Source: Carya illinoinensis
Taxonomy: Eukaryota > Streptophyta > Magnoliopsida > Fagales > Juglandaceae
Assembly (NCBI RefSeq): GCF_018687715.1
Contig: NC_056760.1
Coordinates: 34,201,001-34,265,000 of the forward strand
Direction of reading: 5' to 3'
DNA length: 64,000 bases
Position 1 is the first letter of the stretch; each line of letters opens with the position of its first letter. The notes beneath the pieces are model-generated. The model was not told the origin of the DNA. It saw only the letters and a program-made list of their open reading frames with translations, and searched no databases. The translations under genes were made by a program, and so were the position numbers. Of this stretch, positions 1,915 through 40,007 are shown in pieces.

Positions 1915-4900
1915 CTATGAGCTATATGGAGCAGATGTCAGAACTTTGCGTGGCCCAGAACTGTCGTGAGCACCAACAGGTTTGTTGGATAATCGACGCT
2001 TGTAGCGTTTGAGGACAGATGCCAGATTTTCTTTTCCTTTGGGGAAAGCCACATCACCAGCCGCAGTTCCTGTTCTGCCCTTTCGGCAAGAAATTGCAAT
2101 CTCTACATCCTTGATCATATCTAGGAGCATCCCTGCAGTGGTACATTTCCCCCTGCCTGGTTTTGAAGCAGGGGGCAGCATTCCATTTGAAACGGGTGGG
2201 CTTGTCTTCTGTGGGAATGCCACAGGGATTTGAAGGCAGAAGCACGGGACCATTGGAGAACGAGGTTTCGTAAATGCAAGATCTATGATCCCCTATTTGT
2301 AAAAACATGTCATTGTCAAGATTAACAAGTAAAGAAAATTTTTTTAAAAAAATCACTAAACATTTCAAGATCATTTTGTGAGTTTTAGTAGGGCACTGTA
2401 TGCTTCTTGTACTCACTGATTGAAACAATGGGTGGAAAACCCCCTATGACAGATGAATTTAACGAGATATCCCTAAAAGTGCAGCAGGTATTCATCAAGC
2501 AGGGATACCGGATAGAGCCATGAATGGTGAAACCTACCCAAACCCAACTAAAGTTAAGCAGCAAAAATATGTTTACTGCTTGGTGGAAAAAAGGGCTAAC
2601 AAGATGCTGATCATAGTGCAGAGATTGTGATTACCACAAACATGCGATGCTAAACGTGTAGTAACAGCATAAACTAGCACATAAATATTTACCTGAAGAC
2701 GGTTGAGTACATAAGTATATTTCCCCCACAGCTCTGGCCGGCTTTCCATGAGTGATAGGTCAAGAATCCGGTGGATGCACCACACCCCAAAGCTTACTAT
2801 CAAATCTGATTTCCAAACACAGCCCTCCCCACAATGAGGAACAGAAGAAATCAAAAAGTTGTTGAAGCTCGCCTCATTAGTCCTCATTGCAGAACCAGAC
2901 TTTCTCTCAGAAGACAAATACTGAGGCTCACCCCTATGAATTACCCGATTTATCTCTCTAGTTTCAGCTTCATATAAAAATCTCTCCCTAGCAGCCACAC
3001 GGTCTATTAGATCCTCATCAGCCCCATCATTTTGACCAAACAGCCAATCAGACCCTTCCAATTTCAGTAGCTTTACAATGCAATGTCTGAAACCCTGGAG
3101 AAGTTTGACCTCGGAATCCACAATAGAAGTAGCTTCTTGAGTTATTGAACCTAGCCTACCTCCAAGTCCTTCACTCCCAACAGTATGAATTTTGTCAGCT
3201 ACGCCAAACTGTTCGTAAGGTTGTCTAGACCAGAGGGATCCAGTATCTATACTAGGATTCAACTGTGAGGTAAAACCATCTCTGTAAACTTTTGATGGAG
3301 AGAGTTCATCAAATGCCAAAGGATGTCCTGCCCTTGATCCTGAATTGGGATAACCAGTTCTGCCAACAGAGGATCCATATCCAATGGGACTGTCCCATTG
3401 AGTACTCTTATCAGGTACATACAAATCCCGAGGTGGGACGGAGAATCCAGACATGTCTGGCAAGCTATGGTACTTCTTCGTGTTGGCTGAACTTGCCACA
3501 CTCTCGGCCACTCCAGAAGAACGAGGATCATAATATGGTCTTTCTGAATGCAATGGACTTTCTCTGGATATTGCCAGGTTCTGGTAACCAGAAGCCTGAT
3601 CAGAGCTTAACCCATTTTGCATATTTTGCCCCAATGCATATGTAATTGAGTCTCTGTAGTTAGAAATACCCAAGGATGCCCCCTCCATCTGATTATTTGG
3701 GTGATCAGAGTTTCTGTCTTTAGCCATTCGATAGGATGCAATCTGATAACCATGTATTGTAGCAGGCTGATTATCCAAGCTTTCAAAAGATGGTATACTG
3801 CGCACACTAGAATAGCGTCTCTCGCCAAAGGCAACATTGCGGCTTGAATTCTGCACATATGCATCCAACAATTGCATGTGGTTGGACCTTAACGAGGAAG
3901 TTCCCCTTTGAACCCCATATGATGGCTCTAAACTCCTTTGGATGTTCTGCTGCTTGGGAGACCCATATAAGCTTGAGTTAATTAGATTATCAGATACCCT
4001 GCCTCCCACAGATGGGAAGCATCCAGAAAACTCCCTTGCAGTGGTATCCACTTTTAGAGATGAAGAGGCAGACTTAGAATCTACTCCCAGCAACACATCC
4101 AGTTTCTTAGACTTTGCTTCTTGAGTAGCCTGGCCATGGAAATCATACAGCTGTCCCCAAAACTCGTCAAGAACTGCCGCTAGTTGACGCCTTGCAGCAC
4201 GCCCCAATCCTGCTAATCTTGAAAGACTTCCAGCACCACTCCCACCTTCATCACCTTTCCCACTAAGACTTCTAAAAGATCCCGGACCCTCGGATGTCAA
4301 AGATGGGGTGCCCCCAGAAACCCCTTTATATGCCTCAGGCTCCCAGGAGTCTCCCTCATCATCATCTTTTTCAGTTTGTAGCTCTCCCTCAACACCCAGA
4401 GTCTTCTCCAGAGGGTCCATTGATTCAATTTTGGCAGTCCCATCATCCAGCAACTTAATATCAGAAACCTCATCAGAAACAGTTGAAACTGGGACTGACT
4501 CTACCATGGCTGGTGATTCCTCCAGAGCAAATATGGGGGAGCTAGAAAGTATTGCACTAGAGCGATTTTCCTCCACATTAGTCAAAAGAAGCTCTTGATC
4601 AGGCTCCATAATGGTTTCAGGCAAATCAAGATCAAAATTAGCAACTGGCATATCTGAATGACTCTTCCCATGTGCTGACAACAGTTCTTGCTTCAGAAGA
4701 GGAGCCTCTCCATGATATCCAGTTTCGGTTAAATCAGTTTCCTCTCTGTCTGTGGACAAATCAAGTATAGCCTCCGGTGTAACCCAGTTGGAGATCTGAG
4801 CGTCTAATCTTGCATTTGCAGACTTTAATGGAGTGGCTAATAGCCAGAGCATCAAACAAAGGGATGCAAAAGCAGTGACAAGAAAAAGTAAATAAGTAAA

Positions 4901-7900
4901 AGATAAACTACCCCCCATGTTCCACCTCAAATTAACTGCCCAGTCACTATTCCCCAATATCATTTCTACCATAAACATGACCTTCAATCCTAGCATCCCA
5001 ATAAATGTGATGATTGCTAGAAACTCAACAAAATGAGAAATTTTGTAGACACCCATTATCGGTCTTGATGCAGCAACACGGAACAGGGGGATCACAGAAG
5101 ATGGAAGCAGTAGAGCTACCATCACCTGAGTGAATATAAGCAATTGATACATCCCTTCAGCTCCTGAACTCCAAACACAGTAAAGGGCTGGAACAACAGC
5201 AATAAGTCTGATTGTGGCACAATGAAGCCAACCAGGAATGTCTAGCCTTAAGAAATCATGCAAAACTACTTGCCCACATTGACTCCAGGTAAATGATGTG
5301 ATCAGATTAGAGAAAAACAGAACCAATAGATAGGCAGCGGGAGCCAGAGGACTTGCAAAAACCTGCATTAAAAATATACAGAAATTTATCTGATCAGTAT
5401 CTATCGAGATACTGAACACTATCATAGTTGGCAGTCAGCAAGAATAGAAAATATAGGAAAAAATTAAACCTGTTCCATTAGTGACATTGCGTCCTGAAAA
5501 GTGAGCAAGACGTCACTGTCTAACACATTTGCTGCTGAGACCATCAGCACATAATTCACCAGATAAATACAACTGAAGATGCTGAAGATGGCAACAAAAT
5601 GCTTATGACACAAGGCATCCTTGGAAATGTTTGGCGATGACATAGGTTGCTGCAAAAATATTATGACAGATAGCAAATATCAGAATTTACTTTGACAAGC
5701 ACATGTCTGAAACAACGTATTTCAACACCATTCTACCCAGGTCATGAAGTACTCTTTTAAGAATCTAAGAAAAGTTTTTTGCAAGTCAAAAAAAAATTAA
5801 GCGGGAGAAAGAGAGCATAGTTCAAGTGTTTAATGCACTATGACAGAGAACATGCCACAGTGTAGATCTTTTTGTTTAGGCTATCACATGAACAAATGAC
5901 CAAAGAAAATCAACAAGCATGAAATAAATGGAAAGTAAACCAAGAAAACAAGATGTAACAATTAAGAAAGGCATTTATGCTACAATAAGTGCAAAGGACC
6001 ATAAAATAGAGCAGCCAATGCACAAGAAGAAACCACACCAATGACTTATTTAAAATTGCTAATTTGTAGACGTAGAAGAACCAATAGTGTCATATAACAT
6101 GTATTCAACATTGATAAAATCTCTAACATTGATACACGTTTAAAAATATTGTTACAAAAAAGGGTAAATGTATTTGTCCCTCTATTAGAGGTGTTCCAAA
6201 AATGTCAGTGATCGAGTAAATAGCTCTACGAACGAATAGATTGGAGGATCAAAATGGAAAGTCAATTATAGATTCGAATTTTGGGGAGTGTTGGAACATA
6301 TGGGGTGGGTTTGTGGAAACATGTTCGAAAAAGGTGGGAGACTTTCCTGAGCCATGCACAATATTGAAGTAGGTGATGGTGCTCAAGTCAAATTTTTGCA
6401 CAACAAATGATGTGGTGAACAAAGCCTCAAATAAAGATTCCCTGACGTTTTTGACCTTGTCTAGGCGAAGGATGCTTCAATAGCTGATTTCTTGTTCTTC
6501 TCTCATGGCTCCCCTCAATAGAATGTAGGTTTCATTAGAATCGCACAAGATTGAGAGTTGGAGGTTATCACTGAGTTCTTTGCCTTAATATATTCCGCCA
6601 AGGTGACTGAGGACACCATAGATAAGATCAGCTGGAGCCCCTCCAAGAAAGGTAGATTCACAATTAGATCATCTACCAAATTCTAACTAGCCAAGGCATG
6701 ACACCTTTTCCATGGAGGAATATATGGAAGACAAAAGCCCCTCTAAAAGCAGCTTTTTTTGTTTGGACATCCTCTCTAGACAAGATTCTTACTAAGACAA
6801 TCTGAGGAAATGTCAAGTAATGACATTGGACTAGTGCTACATGTGTAAGAAGAATAGAGAATCAATAGATCACCTGCTTCTACATTGTGAGGTGGGGTCC
6901 TGCCTTGTAGACTGGTGGACTTTCAAGCAAGCTGGAGAGGAATCCAAGGCAATCCTCAAGTGGCAACAATATGGAAGATGGCCCCTATATGTATATGTAT
7001 GTGTTCGTGCATTTGGCAAGAGTGAAATGATAGAAGCTTCGAGGATTGCGAGAGGACAATGAATTAGCTTAAAGTTCTATTCTTTAAAACCTTGTTCTTA
7101 TGGGCGGGGTCCTTGATTATAATGGTCTAAATTTCCTTGATTTTCTACTTTCGATTGTAAACCCTAGTTAGGTACTGTCTCGTGTATACTTCCTGTGTAC
7201 TTGAGCTGTGCTTCCTGTTGTTATGAATAAAATTCTTGATTACCTATCAAAAAAAATATTCTATCTAAAAGTGGTGTCCATAAAAGTTTTATGTCCAAAT
7301 ACACAAGGAGAATGGTTGCGATGAAAGAAGCTTATACACCACCCTCCATAATCTTTAGCCATTTAAATGTGTTTCAAGAAATTCTTTCAAGAAGAAGATC
7401 CAGTGCCACGCCAACATTCTGCAGGCATGGATTATGCAGAGGCACCAGCATTACTAACAACAGACCTGTAAAAGCTAAGGATTGTGAAATGTGGCAGAAA
7501 ATGATTCCACCTGCAGAAAATTTAACATATACAGAGATCAACTCCCACAGCTTTAACCATTAGATTCTTACACTTCAGCATTTATTTCGGAGGCTTCACA
7601 TTCCATTGAACTCACTATATTAATAGATCAAATCTTTTACAGGTCAAATTCAAAAATAGAAAGAAAGCACCAAACTAAAGTGCACATGCCTGCACGCGAA
7701 CAACTCCAAGAATACCATTATTGACACTAGTAAAACTTTATAGAGAAATGCCGAAACTCAAGATTCTATGTTGATGCAGAGCAGCAACAAGGAATCCCTC
7801 ATAAGAATTATTGCAACACAGTTTACAAAAACAAACATTGTGAGTTTTCAACATCAGCCACAATGATAGTGCATTTTAAAGGAAATCTATAATTCCAGAT

Positions 7901-30300: not shown

Positions 30301-30733
30301 AATTTGACATGATAGTGATTGGAAAATGTGACGTATGTATGTTGCCAAAGATCAAAAGAACAACATAATATACTAGAGTCTCATGCTGATAACGTATTTT
30401 GAAATTAAAGAGAAGTAGTAAAAGAATTGAAAGATTGTAATATTAAATTAGCTCTTCAAGAATTTAATATCATTCACTTTAAATTTCTTGTATTGTATAA
30501 ATGATTATCAATATACTATTTTTATAGATATATAAGGATGATGAAAATGACAGGGTGATACATAAAATAATAAATATTAATGATTTAAAAATTCTTAAAG
30601 TTAATACATGAATGAGTTAAAATTTTAAGAGGTAGAATCAGAATCAAATGTATGTGTACACTGCGAGTTGTTTTCCTTTTTGGAACATTTATGAAGGTAG
30701 TAAGTAAAGTCAAAAGGTATAGATATGAAACAA

Positions 30734-31917
30734 GGATAATGCTACATGTCCTGCTCAATGGTCCCGTTTTAGCTTCCCGCTTGACGTGGATACCCCACCT
30801 GGGACGCTAACTTGATTTATTTTTCTCACTTTAAGCCTGAAACAAGGCCTTACCCGTTTTACCCATTCCCTCCCTTGACTTCGTAGGCAAAAATCTCCCC
30901 TCCAGTCATTTCCTCGCACCACCCATCCCACGGAGGGCTTCATCTCCCCTGCCCCACACAACCCCTCCCTCGTAGGTCTTCATCTCCGACAACATCCATC
31001 TCCGACCTGCTCAACCTCATCTCTGAAGTCGTCTCCCACACCCTCAATCTCTGACCAGCCTCATTCAACAAAGATACAACATGTGAAAATAGTCAAACAT
31101 GAAGTTACGAGGAACAACAACAATCGGCGCAAAGAGACCCTTTCCTTCATTGACGTTCTTCATCATGGATCGCGCTATCACCGGCTTTCCAATTCGAACA
31201 TGGTTTGGTACTGACTTGGCTAACGTGGCATAATCTTCACCAGCTATTGAAATTCCCCAGCTTCCATGGAAGGAGGAGCACAAATTTCCCTTGAACCCAG
31301 TTGCAGATATTGAAGTAGCCGTCGACAAACAAACACAAACAACGGGAGATTTCTAAGGCTAAGATTTTTTTTATGGGTTTTATGTGCTAGTGAGGGAGGG
31401 GATATCATTGTGTAATCTGGAGAGCCTCTGGTTTTTATTGGATGTAATGTGAGAGAGAGGCAAAGAGACATTAGCAGCCACACGTACAGGTAGCTTGGAA
31501 TTTAGCTTCGGATTTTCTGCAACCCAAAAGTATGAATTGCATATTACTATGAATTGCATATTACTACTGAATTATGGTCCCCATTTAATTGGAAATCTGA
31601 ATCTAGAATTTTAGAGGTTCTTTATGTGAGTCCAACCCCTTTCTTGAATGATTCATCTCCAATGTCTACTGGAGGGGATGTCGTTGGAGCAGGGGAGATG
31701 AAGACCTGCGCGGGATGGGTAGTGCGGGGCAATGCAAACTGGAGGGGAGATGTTTGCCTGTGAAGTCGAGGGAGGATGGGTAAAACGATAAAACACGGAG
31801 GGCTTTGTTTCAGCTTTCAAAAAGTGAGAAAAAGAAATAAAGTTAACCTACAAGTGGATATCCACGTCAAGCGGAAAACTAAAACGGGATCATTAAGCGG
31901 GATGTGTAGCATTATCC
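30734..31917. mobile_element. Pack-MULE (Mutator-like) carrying a PGR5 fragment
   Basis: The left end is GGATAATGCTACA and the right end TGTAGCATTATCC, exact inverses. The inverted similarity extends about 240 bases inward (30734-30970 and 31669-31917) with scattered mismatches. The flanking 9-bp sequence ATGAAACAA is exactly duplicated at 30725-30733 and 31918-31926, the length diagnostic for Mutator-like elements. Total length is 1184 bp. No MURA transposase is present; instead the interior holds a captured host gene piece (31090-31328 and probably its 5' flank). This is the definition of a Pack-MULE. Confidence 0.93.
31090..31328 (-). pseudogene. captured PGR5 first-exon fragment in Pack-MULE
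   Basis: The minus-strand frame matches the N-terminal part of PROTON GRADIENT REGULATION 5, the thylakoid protein needed for ferredoxin-dependent cyclic electron flow around photosystem I. Recognisable pieces are a Ser/Thr/Ala-rich plastid transit-like start, 'GSWGISIAGEDY' and 'MMKNVNEGKGLFAPIVVV'. The homologous stretch covers about 75 residues of the roughly 130-residue family. It stops after 'PRN', where an exon boundary would be plausible, and then runs into unrelated sequence. The position of the family start Met is TTG here, so the original start codon appears lost, although the remaining frame is open. The preceding 31330-31500 may be captured PGR5 5' UTR or promoter. A real PGR5 gene should exist elsewhere. 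Confidence 0.85.
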
Positions 31918-31926
31918 ATGAAACAA

Positions 31927-32410
31927 TCATCTAGGATAAAGGGCAATTTATAACACCTGACTTACAGGACATATGCCACTCGCTCACCCTCCTTGTTGCC
32001 GTTCTGTATTAATGCCACGCGAGTGGCATTGTTTGTTTTCATAAAACTTTAGCTTCATCTTAATTATTATTATTTTTTTAAATTTTTATATAAAATAAAA
32101 TAAATAATTTAAATTTTTTAAAATTTTAATATAATTTTTTTAAAATTTTAATATAAAAATAATATATTTTAATAATATTTTATTTAACTTATCTCATCTA
32201 ATTTATAAAAATAAACAAATTGATTAGAAATATCACGTAAGCATAATAGGATATAAATAAAATGAGGACGTAGGATTACAATATTTAATTTTCTTAGGAT
32301 TTCACACATTTCCATGCCCTCGATCCATTTTCAAAGCTCTCTTAACGTACAACATCATTTGTAAACTTGTTAGCGTGTGATTCTTTAACCATATAACTAA
32401 CAAGCATAAA
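31927..32410. other. AT-rich spacer
   Basis: Contains an AT-rich repeat stretch (32050-32220) similar to that at 19030-19170. No coding signal. Confidence 0.5.
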
Positions 32411-34135: not shown

Positions 34136-34515
34136 CTCCTAGGATTAAAACACTAAATTTACACATTATTAGAAAGAAAACATCTATTTTTATATAAAAA
34201 ACTAATATATACAAGTTCTAAATGTACAAATCCTACACAAGTCCTTTATAACAAAAATGAATTCCACTATTAAAAATGTAAAAATTTTATTTTTTCTTGA
34301 TAGAATCCATATTTTTATAAAAGACATACAAAATTTATATATTTAAAATTTATAGCTAACAAATGATAACTTTGAGTTGGACCATCCTCTCTCTGCTCTC
34401 TCTCTGCAGAGCAGCGTAGAGGCCGTTTCCTACCCTGTGTAGGTGGTGTGGGTGGTCTTGTTTTTTTCCCCCTGGTAGGGGTACGGAGGCCGTTACGGAC
34501 TACGGCAGAAACAGA

Positions 34516-35904
34516 ATGGAGGAAGAACTACGAGCACTCTATGAGAAACTTTCCCTTACTGCAGAGGAATCGGCAGGAGTAGTGGTGGAAACAGAACGGC
34601 TTGAAGATGTTAGAGTTCGGGGTGAGAAATCCCTGATGGTCAGGCTGCTTACGGAGCGATACTTCAATCGGGAGGCCTTCAAGCAGACAATGCGCCGGGT
34701 GTGGAGACCGACGAAGAACATTAAGTTCCGTGACCTAACTCAGGGATTGATGCTGGTGGAGTTCGATGAACCTAGAGACAAGGTACGAGTTCTACACGAT
34801 GGTCCATGGACTTTCAACAAACAGTTGGTGCTTACTAAGGAATTCGAGGGCCATCTACAGGCGCATGAAGTTTCTATGACAACGGCAGATTTTTGGGTAA
34901 GAATCCATGATTTACCAATGATCGCATGCAATGAATACGTGGGCAAACTAATTGGGGATACGCTAGGCAAGGTTATTGAGGTGGATGTAGATTATGACGA
35001 CCTTGCATGGGGGGAGTACATGCGGGTTCGGTTAGCGCTTGATATCACGAAGCCTCTGCTACGGAGGAAGAGGATAAGCCTGGGTGACCACCGAGAGTAC
35101 TGGGTTAGATTCACCTACGAGAGGCTGCCGGATTTTTGTTACCAATGTGGGAGGCTGGGACACTCCCACAAGGAGTGTGATAGCTGGAAAATCCGAAGCA
35201 CAGATCCCAAAGAGGAGAGCCTTCCCTATGGACAATGGCTGAGGGCGGCTCAGTCAACTGGCGGGGGATTCAACAACCCAAAGTACGGGCAGAAAGATAG
35301 TAACGCGGGGAAGCACCCTGCCCCGAGCACGGAGGCTCCATCTATGGGACAGACTCAGGCCTCGCAGGACGCACGACCGGAGGACTCGAGTATCCGAGAA
35401 CAGGGGAACGAAATAATAGAGCCAGCACAGCTTTTTAACGTCCCCATCTTCGAACAACAATTGGGAGATAACCAGAGGAATGGGGGGATATCGAATGATG
35501 ATGGCCTGAGTAACCAAGCACAACCCGAGGAAGACGGTGCTGCCAATGGCTCGGATGAGGCCGCATCCAACGATCAGGAAATCTCCCCAAGGGCCGGGGC
35601 CTCGAACCCACACCCTCACGGGTTTCCACTGGACCTCGTGATGGCCACACTAGAGCCCACTCCCAATGGGCTCTCTCGGCCCAAACGAAGAAAGCGAGGT
35701 AGGAACCGGACGGGGACCGCTGGGTCTGCACCAGAAGAGACATCCACCATCAAAGCTGGTCGAAAACGGTCAGCTCCAACCTGTGATGATGATGATACGC
35801 GTAAGGCAAAGAGGACCTCTACGAGCTTACCTGAGGGTTTGCTGGAGGCTGGAGAGTACAACGGATCGGTGGTGGCTGCGGGGCAGCCCCGCCGGGTCCA
35901 ATGA
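34516..35904 (+). CDS. LINE ORF1: DUF4283 and CCHC zinc-knuckle protein
   Basis: This 462-residue nucleic-acid-binding protein is expected to coat LINE RNA as a ribonucleoprotein. Residues about 35-180 form a DUF4283 domain (a plant LINE/gag-like RNA-binding fold; see 'GPWTFNKQLVLTKEF' and 'FWVRIHDLP'). Residues 208-221 form a zf-CCHC_4 knuckle, with Cys208, Cys211, His216 and Cys221 in the spacing C-x2-C-x4-H-x4-C. The rest is disordered: acidic and Gln/Asn-rich, with a basic cluster near 390-400 that could localise it to the nucleus. The first ATG after the leader is used. Its TGA stop overlaps the ORF2 start by 4 bases (ATGA). Confidence 0.93.
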   Translation: MEEELRALYEKLSLTAEESAGVVVETERLEDVRVRGEKSLMVRLLTERYFNREAFKQTMRRVWRPTKNIKFRDLTQGLMLVEFDEPRDKVRVLHDGPWTFNKQLVLTKEFEGHLQAHEVSMTTADFWVRIHDLPMIACNEYVGKLIGDTLGKVIEVDVDYDDLAWGEYMRVRLALDITKPLLRRKRISLGDHREYWVRFTYERLPDFCYQCGRLGHSHKECDSWKIRSTDPKEESLPYGQWLRAAQSTGGGFNNPKYGQKDSNAGKHPAPSTEAPSMGQTQASQDARPEDSSIREQGNEIIEPAQLFNVPIFEQQLGDNQRNGGISNDDGLSNQAQPEEDGAANGSDEAASNDQEISPRAGASNPHPHGFPLDLVMATLEPTPNGLSRPKRRKRGRNRTGTAGSAPEETSTIKAGRKRSAPTCDDDDTRKAKRTSTSLPEGLLEAGEYNGSVVAAGQPRRVQ

Positions 35905-38900
35905 AGCTACTAAGCTGGAATCCCCGTGGGCTTGGGAACCCACGTGGATTCAGAACCCTTCGTGATTTAATCAGGAAGGAAGATCCCGATGTGGTCTTCT
36001 TGCAGGAGACAAAGATCACCTCTCGCGTGATGGACAACTACAGAGCAAGGTTAGGACTTCCTAATTGTCTTTCTGTTGACTGTTGTGGAAGAAGTGGTGG
36101 GCTAGCTTTATTATGGAATGCAGATGTTAATGTGAAAATTCTTAGCTTCTCGACTAACCATATACATGCTAGCATTAGTAGTAATGATGGGTGTAGTAGA
36201 GACTGGTTTCTCACAGGCTTTTACGGCCATCCCGAGACCTCTAAACGAAATAGAACTTGGGATTTACTTAGAGAAATTGCTAGTAAAGTTGATAAACCAT
36301 GGCTGGTGTATGGAGATTTTAATGAAGTGTTGGACCACAATGAGAAGTGGGGCGGCAGGATGAGACCACAATGTCAACTGGATGCCTTTCGGGCTGTCCT
36401 CTCGGACTGTCAGTTGATGGACTTGGGATTCTCGGGGCCTGCTTATACATGGTGTAACAGAAGAGAAGCAGGAGCACGCATTTGTGAAAGAATTGACCGT
36501 TGGGTAGCCACGGACAGCTGGTTGGACTTATTCCCTGGTACAAAAGTTATACATGGGGCTGTTTCTTACTCAGACCATATTCCTGTGTGGGTAGACACGG
36601 AAGGTTTTTCTAACAACCAAAGGAGGAAAAGGATGTTCAGATTTGAGGCTATGTGGGTGGGACACCCGGACTGTGAGGAAATCATCAGAGACACCTGGCA
36701 AAGAACACAAACAGATGGGGATCATATGGCTTGGGCCATGCAGCTAATCTCAACCTGTGGAAACAGACTAAAGGGGTGGAATCAACAGAATTTTGGAAAT
36801 GTAAACAAACAGATCAAAATAGCCAGCGAGGAGCTAAAACACCTCCAAAATTCAGATCCCACTTATGAGAAAACTGAAGAACACAGGAGAGCAAGGAGTG
36901 AGGTCCAACTATGGCTGGAGAGGGAGGAACTCATGTGGCAGCAGAGATCAAAGGTGCAGTGGATGTACTGTGGGGACCAAAACACTAAGTTCTTCCATCA
37001 AAAAGCTTCCCTAAGAAGAAAGAAGAACTTTATCCAGAAATTACAAGATGCTAATGGCACCTGGCTTGAGGGATCACGGAGGGATTTGCTGATCAGTGAG
37101 TACTTTAAATCCCTATTTACTACCTCCTCTGATAGAGGCTCTATGGATGTCATCGAAGGGATGGGAACAAGGGTAACTGCTGATATGTATGTTGAGTTGG
37201 AAAAAGTCTATACTGCTGAAGAAGTTTCTATGGCTTTAAGGCAGATGCATCCCAGGAAAGCCCCGGGCCCAGACGGAATGTCACCAATCTTCTTCCAAAA
37301 ATACTGGCACATCGTCGGAGACAAAATTATTGCTGCTGTACTTGATGTCCTTAATACAGGTCAGCTCCCCACGGGGTTAAACCATACCTTGATAGTGTTA
37401 ATTCCTAAGCTTTGCTCACCTATTTCAGTCTCTGATTTCAGGCCTATTAGTTTGTGTAATGTAATCTACAAACTAATAGCTAAAGTTATCACTAATCGCT
37501 TAAAAGGTGTTTTACCTTTCATCATTTCTGATACACAATCTGCTTTTGTGCCGGGGAGACTTATTACTGACAATGTATTGGTAGCCTATGAATTGATACA
37601 CTATCTGAAAAATAGAAGAAAGGGGAGGAAGGGGTTCATGTCACTCAAGTTAGACATGTCCAAAGCTTATGACCGTGTGGAGTGGGACTTTTTGGAAGGG
37701 GTATTGAGGAAGATGGGATTCCCACACAGCTTGGTTAATCTTATTATGAATTGTGTAACCTCAGTTTCCTTTTCTGTCTTGGTGAATGGTGACCCTACTG
37801 AACCGTTCAAACCCTCTAGAGGAATTAGGCAAGGAGACCCTTTGTCACCTTACCTATTCCTATTATGCACCGAAGCTCTCATTGCTTTGTTGAAACAAGC
37901 TGAAATGGAGGGAGCCGTAAAGGGTATCAAGATCTGTAGGGGGGCACCCAGTATCAACCATATGCTCTTTGCTGATGACTCCATCGTTTTCTGTAATGCG
38001 GATGTGGCAACGTCAGTTAACATACAAGTTTTGCTGAGGAGGTATGAACAAGCCTCTGGTCAGATGATTAATAAGCAGAAGACAGCCATGATTTTTAGCT
38101 CTAATGTGCCTACTAGTACGAGAGACTCCATCATGGCTATGTGGGGGGGGAGTACAATACAACAATATGAGAAATACCTTGGCTTACCTCCAATTGTGGG
38201 GAAAGCTAAAACTGTCGCCTTTGCTGAAATTAAGAATAGAGTATGGAAGAGGCTCCAAAGCTGGAAGGAAAAACTATTATCCCAAGGGGGTCGTGAGGTA
38301 CTATTAAAAGCTGTTGCTTGCTCAATCCCATCCTTTGCGATGAGTTGTTTTAAACTTCCAACAGTCTTATGCCGAGAAATCGAGAAAATGATGGCTCGAT
38401 TCTGGTGGGGACAACGAAAGGAAGGGAGAAAAATTCACTGGATATCATGGGAAAAGTTGTGTGTCCAAAAATCAAAGGGTGGGATGGGATTTAGAGATCT
38501 CAAGATGTTCAATTTGGCCCTTCTAGCAAAACAGGCCTGGAGGGTTCTCAAGTCTGAAGACTCTTTAATTCACAGGCTGTACAAGGCAAAGTACTTTCCT
38601 AACTCCTCTTTCTTTGAGTCCCAGTTGGGCCACAACTCCTCATATACCTGGAGAGGAATCTGGGAGAGCAGAAACATGCTGGAAAAAGGGTGCCAATGGA
38701 GAATCGGGAATGGAGCTAAGGCACGGATTTGGCAAGACATTTGGGTTCCAGGGCACGGTTTGCTATTGAATGAGGAACATGGTCATGAGGAGAGGGATAC
38801 TACAGCAAGAGTAGAAACCTTGATAAATGAAGAGACACAATGGTGGGATGTTCCAAAGGTTAGAGCTCTCTTCAATCCAAAAGTTTCTTCTGATATCCTG

Positions 38901-40007
38901 AAAATACTCCTCAGTCCGGGCCAACATGAAGATGTATGGATGTGGCGGCATGAGAAAAGTGGGGTTTTTAGTGTTCGAAGTGGCTATAGATTCTTCAAGG
39001 CTATACTCAAACAGGAAGCTGCCGAGAGCTCTAATGCCTGCCAAAACCAGAAACTGTGGAAAGCTATCTGGAAAATGCAAGTTCCCAACAAAGTCAGAGT
39101 GTTTGCATGGAGAATTTGCAATGATAGCCTACCATCCAAGCTACACCTATACAAGAGGAAGATTATAGAGAACACCACCTGCGAGTTCTGTAATCATCCC
39201 ACAGAAGATATAGCCCATGCCGTGCTATATTGCCCAGACATCAAGAACACATGGAAGCAGCTATTACCCGAGGTAGCTGAGCTGTCTGAGCAATGCACAA
39301 TGGATCAAGCTGCTCTGTTTTTTGCAATCAGGGGGGACCAAAATCTCCTTTGCAGATTCTTTCTAATAGCGTGGTCATTCTGGTATAGGAGGAATAAGTG
39401 GTTTATTGAGCACTCTCCCCTGAGTCCTATGCAGGCTGCCCACCATGCTCTCGGTTTACAAAAGACAAAAACCTCCCCAACCTCTGAACCAAGTCTTCTA
39501 ATGCAGAAATTAGGCTGTTGGTATGTTCCCCCATCTGGTTTCTTCAAGATTAATGTGGATGCTGCGGTTTTTTTCAACCTTAGAAAGGCTGGCGTAGGGG
39601 TTGTGGTTAGGGATGATGGAGGTAATATTCTCATGGCTGTTAGTAAAGTTGAGCACGAGCTCCATGAACCTGAATCCGTGGAGGCCTTAGCAATGTTACG
39701 GGGTCTTCAGTTTACGTTGCACTTGGGGATCTCAAAAGTGGTGCTTGAAAGTGATTGCTTACTCATGGTTGAAGCGCTGACTGCAAACACAGCACTGTTA
39801 TCTGCTCAAGGCAACGTCATACAGGAGATACGGCATTTACTTAGCTTGTTTGATGACTATAAGGTTCAACATGTATTACGTAGTGGCAATCAAGTAGCTC
39901 ATACCTTGGCAAGACATGCTTGGTCCGTAGATGAGTTGGAGATGTGGATGGGGTCTGTCCCTCCTTTTCTTTCTCAAGTCTGTTGGCTTGATCTCTCTCA
40001 TCTGTAA
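35901..40007 (+). CDS. LINE ORF2: endonuclease, reverse transcriptase, RNase H
   Basis: This 1368-residue polyprotein carries out target-primed reverse transcription. Residues 1-230 form an APE-type endonuclease with the expected catalytic residues: Asn7, Glu36, Asp139, Asn141, Asp199, and Ser224-Asp225-His226. Residues about 445-750 form the reverse transcriptase, with 'KLDMSKAYDRV' (Asp585), the RQGDPLSP motif (643-650) and FADD (690-693). Residues about 1050-1120 are a zf-RVT domain with Cys/His pairs ('CEFC...HAVLYC'). Residues about 1215-1345 form a plant-LINE RNase H (RVT_3) with Asp1220, Glu1261 and Asp1285. No stop or frameshift interrupts it. The start ATG lies within ATGA at the end of ORF1, suggesting translation by reinitiation or an independent mechanism. 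The RNase H type is typical of plant L1-clade elements. Confidence 0.95.
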   Translation: MKLLSWNPRGLGNPRGFRTLRDLIRKEDPDVVFLQETKITSRVMDNYRARLGLPNCLSVDCCGRSGGLALLWNADVNVKILSFSTNHIHASISSNDGCSRDWFLTGFYGHPETSKRNRTWDLLREIASKVDKPWLVYGDFNEVLDHNEKWGGRMRPQCQLDAFRAVLSDCQLMDLGFSGPAYTWCNRREAGARICERIDRWVATDSWLDLFPGTKVIHGAVSYSDHIPVWVDTEGFSNNQRRKRMFRFEAMWVGHPDCEEIIRDTWQRTQTDGDHMAWAMQLISTCGNRLKGWNQQNFGNVNKQIKIASEELKHLQNSDPTYEKTEEHRRARSEVQLWLEREELMWQQRSKVQWMYCGDQNTKFFHQKASLRRKKNFIQKLQDANGTWLEGSRRDLLISEYFKSLFTTSSDRGSMDVIEGMGTRVTADMYVELEKVYTAEEVSMALRQMHPRKAPGPDGMSPIFFQKYWHIVGDKIIAAVLDVLNTGQLPTGLNHTLIVLIPKLCSPISVSDFRPISLCNVIYKLIAKVITNRLKGVLPFIISDTQSAFVPGRLITDNVLVAYELIHYLKNRRKGRKGFMSLKLDMSKAYDRVEWDFLEGVLRKMGFPHSLVNLIMNCVTSVSFSVLVNGDPTEPFKPSRGIRQGDPLSPYLFLLCTEALIALLKQAEMEGAVKGIKICRGAPSINHMLFADDSIVFCNADVATSVNIQVLLRRYEQASGQMINKQKTAMIFSSNVPTSTRDSIMAMWGGSTIQQYEKYLGLPPIVGKAKTVAFAEIKNRVWKRLQSWKEKLLSQGGREVLLKAVACSIPSFAMSCFKLPTVLCREIEKMMARFWWGQRKEGRKIHWISWEKLCVQKSKGGMGFRDLKMFNLALLAKQAWRVLKSEDSLIHRLYKAKYFPNSSFFESQLGHNSSYTWRGIWESRNMLEKGCQWRIGNGAKARIWQDIWVPGHGLLLNEEHGHEERDTTARVETLINEETQWWDVPKVRALFNPKVSSDILKILLSPGQHEDVWMWRHEKSGVFSVRSGYRFFKAILKQEAAESSNACQNQKLWKAIWKMQVPNKVRVFAWRICNDSLPSKLHLYKRKIIENTTCEFCNHPTEDIAHAVLYCPDIKNTWKQLLPEVAELSEQCTMDQAALFFAIRGDQNLLCRFFLIAWSFWYRRNKWFIEHSPLSPMQAAHHALGLQKTKTSPTSEPSLLMQKLGCWYVPPSGFFKINVDAAVFFNLRKAGVGVVVRDDGGNILMAVSKVEHELHEPESVEALAMLRGLQFTLHLGISKVVLESDCLLMVEALTANTALLSAQGNVIQEIRHLLSLFDDYKVQHVLRSGNQVAHTLARHAWSVDELEMWMGSVPPFLSQVCWLDLSHL

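Follow-up and report, generated by a model that had tools for sequence, protein, structure and literature searches.

A Mutator-like element of the Pack-MULE type carrying part of PGR5 in Carya illinoinensis, and its second copy elsewhere in the genome

The window, a stretch of 64,000 nucleotides from Carya illinoinensis, contains at positions 30734-31917 a Mutator-like element of the Pack-MULE type, and the DNA that this element holds between its inverted ends derives from a gene for PGR5. With a probability of roughly 0.92, we regard the element as the product of a capture from the PGR5 gene on C1, followed by transposition and decay, with most likely no function at present. According to this history, a non-autonomous Mutator-like element would have copied 545 bp of the C1 gene between its long inverted ends, and a transposase that was presumably supplied in trans would then have moved the element roughly 20 million years ago, giving rise to at least two copies, one on C9 and one on C3, which appear to have decayed afterwards without detectable selection on an encoded peptide.

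The element of the window lies on C9 (C9:34231734-34232917) and has a length of 1184 bp. Its inverted ends (TIRs) occupy 30734-30968 on the plus strand (235 bp) and 31671-31917 on the minus strand (247 bp). Their terminal 250 bases were aligned locally, which gave 201 identical positions in 253 aligned columns and a score of 240, while 200 base shuffles reached no more than 34. The outer 13 bases, GGATAATGCTACA, with which the left TIR starts, are found as the exact reverse complement at the other end, and an exact 9-bp target-site duplication (TSD), ATGAAACAA, is present on both flanks at 30725-30733 and 31918-31926 (plus strand). The coordinates given for the element in a preliminary description were thus correct to the base, and the inverted ends of about 240 bp, the exact 13-base termini and the exact 9-bp duplication described there are all borne out. 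Inward of the left TIR, subterminal MULE-family sequence extends over 30969-31066 (plus strand), and its part from 30976 to 31066 resembles the inner side of one end of a related element on C7 (85% and 75% identity for element bases 243-311 and 279-333, respectively). A short filler at 31067-31098 (plus strand) separates this sequence from the captured DNA, which is followed by a short stretch at 31644-31670 (minus strand) that leads to the right TIR. The G+C content ranges from 37 to 51.5% per 200-base step between 30600 and 31999, a range that covers the element and some flank, and it is 18.5% in 30400-30599 and 13.5% in 32000-32199, beyond the element region. Eight frames besides the PGR5 frame, out of 23 that lie around the element and reach 40 aa, were scanned without any Pfam match, and the PGR5 frame itself gave two matches below the cut-off, neither of them to a transposase. 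The element thus combines a TSD within the 9-11 bp range and TIRs within the typical 100-500 bp of Mutator-like elements with the hallmarks of a Pack-MULE, namely a host-gene piece whose parent lies elsewhere and no transposase seen inside, as judged from the Pfam-scanned frames.

The captured piece spans 31099-31643 (545 bp, minus strand) and is identical to the C1 PGR5 gene in 488 of 546 columns. It consists of 224 bases from the 279-base coding part of exon 1, corresponding to codons 1 to about 74 (31099-31322), and of the 321 bp that precede the start codon (31323-31643) and comprise the 5' UTR and the probable promoter. The earlier assignment as a captured first exon therefore holds with regard to the origin from exon 1, and needs correction in that about a fifth of the exon's coding bases are missing and upstream sequence was captured as well. 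That a minus-strand frame matches the start of PGR5 is confirmed by alignments to the Arabidopsis protein (45 of 79 residues identical) and to P0001 of Carya illinoinensis (85% identity over 78% of the frame). P0001 and the Juglans regia protein P0002, which both carry the name PGR5 in UniRef, are the top two protein matches among the best 120 of 183, and the identification was based on such alignments, as no Pfam model reached the cut-off on either the C9 PGR5 frame or P0001. None of the matches listed (best 120 of 183) is more than 85% identical to the C9 frame, and therefore no database protein predicted from the element is among them.

The piece had been proposed to originate from a PGR5 gene elsewhere, and a genome search with 31090-31500 indeed led to such a gene: the seven matches were the window itself, C3, C1, C2 (in two pieces), C10 and C13, and C1 and C2 each hold a PGR5 gene with two coding exons, of which the intact C1 gene is the closer one. 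The joined C1 exons encode a protein of 127 aa that is identical to P0001, and the joined C2 exons encode P0061, likewise a Carya illinoinensis record. Over the captured segment, the K2P distance of the C9 copy is 0.087 to C1 and 0.222 to C2, and that of the C3 copy is 0.090 to C1 and 0.218 to C2. The C1 gene is the source of the captured segment, and the C2 gene was rejected as parent, with a K2P of 0.22 as compared to 0.09 for C1. In contrast to the two Carya genes, the copy in the element is partial and damaged, as the rest of exon 1, the intron and exon 2 are missing, and instead of a start codon and a full coding sequence, as expected for a functional PGR5, it has ACG in place of ATG and about 74 of the 127 codons. 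Regarding the other PGR5-related sequences, the C2 gene (L010, near 3390) lacks eight codons (SWGTSMAG) that C1 has in its N-terminal region, probably within the transit peptide. The matches on C10 (L011 3253-3503) and C13 (L012 3199-3449) are partial copies that cross the exon junction without an intron and contain stops, the C10 copy also being frameshifted, and, being 93% identical to the coding sequence of C1 as compared to 83-86% for C2, they are apparent processed pseudogenes of the C1 gene.

The element on C3 (L008 2379-3534; C3:37960878-37962033) matches the C9 element from end to end, with 87.6% identity over 1192 columns, and has its own exact TSD, TTAAGTTAT, which differs from that of C9. 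TIRs, filler and both capture junctions are common to the two elements, whereas the 300-bp flanks on each side of the C9 element gave no alignment at C3 beyond 2 bp (E up to 1e-3). Two copies with different TSDs demonstrate past mobility, and the shared architecture shows that one capture was followed by transposition; separate captures in C9 and C3 were rejected, since junctions, TIRs and filler are all shared. These data also bear on the idea that the PGR5-like DNA stems from an old segmental duplication and has TIRs on both sides by chance, for which no evidence was seen and which we consider to have a negligible probability: the same unit from TIR to TIR is found on C3 with the same junctions, within other flanks and with a different TSD, and PGR5 sequence past the TIRs was not seen in the 300-bp flanks that were compared. 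In gap-free columns, five sites group the C9 and C3 copies against both genes, and at two further sites, where the genes are unlike each other, the copies are distinct from either gene. Three sites group C9 with C1 against C3 with C2 and thus conflict with the single-capture grouping, and no site groups C9 with C2. Since five (plus two) sites group the copies, as compared to three and none for the other patterns, capture and spread were probably close together in time.

For the age of the capture, the two PGR5 genes provide a reference. The C1 and C2 stretches align as five collinear blocks, and the genes differ by a K2P of 0.284 upstream of the start codon and a dS of 0.244 over the portion of exon 1 that was compared. 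According to PMC4574618, the juglandoid genome duplication has a Ks of 0.274 and an age of about 60 My, at a rate of 2.29e-9 per site and year. The gene pair fits this duplication, and C2 is a probable homoeolog of C1. With this rate, the K2P of 0.087 (whole segment) to 0.107 (upstream part) would date the capture to about 19-23 My, and the distance between the C9 and C3 copies, 0.092 (captured segment) to 0.106 (right arm), would place their split at about 20-23 My, assuming equal rates on both branches and with a sampling error of about 15-20%. These dates are rough, because the coding part alone gives a lower age of about 8-14 My (C9-C1: K2P 0.062; dS 0.038, from two synonymous changes). 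Taken at this rate, the distances suggest a capture roughly 20 My ago, well after the juglandoid duplication. At positions 8 and 27, neither element copy has the residue of Juglans (represented by P0002 only), and neither has the Carya-C1 residue at position 36, a pattern that would fit a capture before the Carya change at position 36 and that gives no placing relative to the genus split.

Both copies look decayed, and selection on a peptide is not detectable in either. The C3 copy retains its ATG, and a 2-base deletion ends its frame after 71 residues; the frame of the C9 copy begins with ACG and is open over 95 codons, the tail residues being read from filler. By the Nei-Gojobori method, dN/dS is 1.79 for C9-C1 (74 codons; 11 non-synonymous versus 2 synonymous changes), whereas C3-C1, compared over the 65 codons that precede the frameshift, gives 0.82 (11 and 4) and C9-C3 gives 1.08 (65 codons; 14 and 4), as compared to 0.11 for the two genes C1 and C2 (4 and 10, omitting the eight codons missing in C2), all of these values being derived from small counts of 13 to 18 changes per pair. 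Decay would be expected to give such a contrast between genes and copies. That the window copy yields a plastid-directed peptide, as considered in the preliminary description, is unlikely, because the start codon is lost and the dN/dS values give no sign of purifying selection. It is true that the open C9 frame spans transit-peptide-like and early mature residues, and that the C3 copy, with its ATG and a 71-residue frame over the same region, could yield a peptide, albeit without sign of selection for one. However, a captured gene fragment can retain an open frame without giving rise to a product. The in-frame ATGs of the C9 copy lie downstream of codon 1, from MMKNVNEGKG on, so that the targeting part would be lost, and with the deletion in C3 and dN/dS values of 0.82 to 1.79 we see almost no chance that either copy encodes a plastid-directed PGR5-like peptide.

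A regulatory role has to be considered as well, since small RNAs from the elements that act on PGR5 are possible in terms of sequence identity. Of the 204 21-mers in the captured exon part on C9, 54 occur exactly in C1 (longest run 56 bases) and 24 in C2 (longest run 44), the captured upstream part shares 25 of 301 with C1 and none with C2, and the C3 element shares 71 of 1136 with C1 and none with C2. Exact 21-mers are thus common to both copies and C1, and to the C9 exon part and C2, and two studies describe TIR promoters that drive the expression of Pack-MULE interiors (PMC3310237) and mention possible small RNAs (PMC8277862). Shared 21-mers are expected anyway in a copy with about 8% differences, and the divergence between the C9 and C3 copies is close to that between copy and gene, without any sign of retained identity. 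That the element is transcribed and generates small or antisense RNAs that tune the C1 gene, and perhaps the C2 gene, is therefore improbable in our view. Still less probable is the more specific scenario in which the captured 321-bp upstream sequence would be a working PGR5-type promoter whose transcript runs into a TIR and gives rise to small RNAs that adjust the parental gene. If true, a transposon would have supplied hickories with a regulator of cyclic electron flow. In the capture-and-decay history that we favor, the captured piece is most likely functionless today, and transcription from the TIRs or the captured upstream sequence may possibly feed small RNAs.

The PGR5 element is not the only one with such termini. 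A genome search with the left TIR, whose counts are lower bounds, gave at least seven matches, namely the four arms of the C9 and C3 elements and three weaker relatives. The relative on C7 (L020 2212-4177; 1966 bp) has an exact TSD, TAAATATTA, and contains a fragment of a DUF599 gene (E 3.4e-18). A relative at 36.93 Mb on C9 (L022 4014-4874; about 860 bp) has a TSD that matches in 8 of 9 positions (AACTGCAAA, AACTGGAAA) and contains a fragment of a PPR gene (E 2e-8), and its second frame gave no Pfam match. On C15, a single arm was seen that is 66-68% alike. With the DUF599, PPR and PGR5 pieces, elements with related TIRs hold parts of at least three different genes, and an autonomous partner with these TIRs was not found in the left-TIR search.

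Outside the element, the window contains long frames at 34420-40007, the second of which (35835-40007) has Pfam matches to endonuclease, reverse transcriptase, zf-RVT and RVT_3, as in a non-LTR retrotransposon. A minus-strand frame of 953 aa at 2573-5434 has an Nramp match and presumably resembles EIN2. In viral contigs, five stretches matched a pattern, and none of them encodes a relative as judged by tblastn.

The element is clear but ordinary in kind, an instance of a known process. As in the Pack-MULEs of rice, tomato and other plants described in PMC3310237 and PMC8277862, there are long TIRs with a 9-bp TSD, there is no transposase seen and a gene fragment whose parent lies on another contig, and there are multiple copies with distinct TSDs. 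The host, Carya, and the captured gene, PGR5, are what sets it apart, without a difference in kind being seen, and our literature search found no report that links Pack-MULEs to either PGR5 or Carya. One tree genome here offers for comparison the source gene together with its probable homoeolog, both transposed copies and relatives that captured other genes, and therefore the capture can be roughly dated and the decay measured. For rice, PMC8277862 gives 481 of 1337 Pack-MULEs as multicopy and 40% as transcribed, with protein-coding ones being rare, and the elements on C9 and C3 fit this picture.
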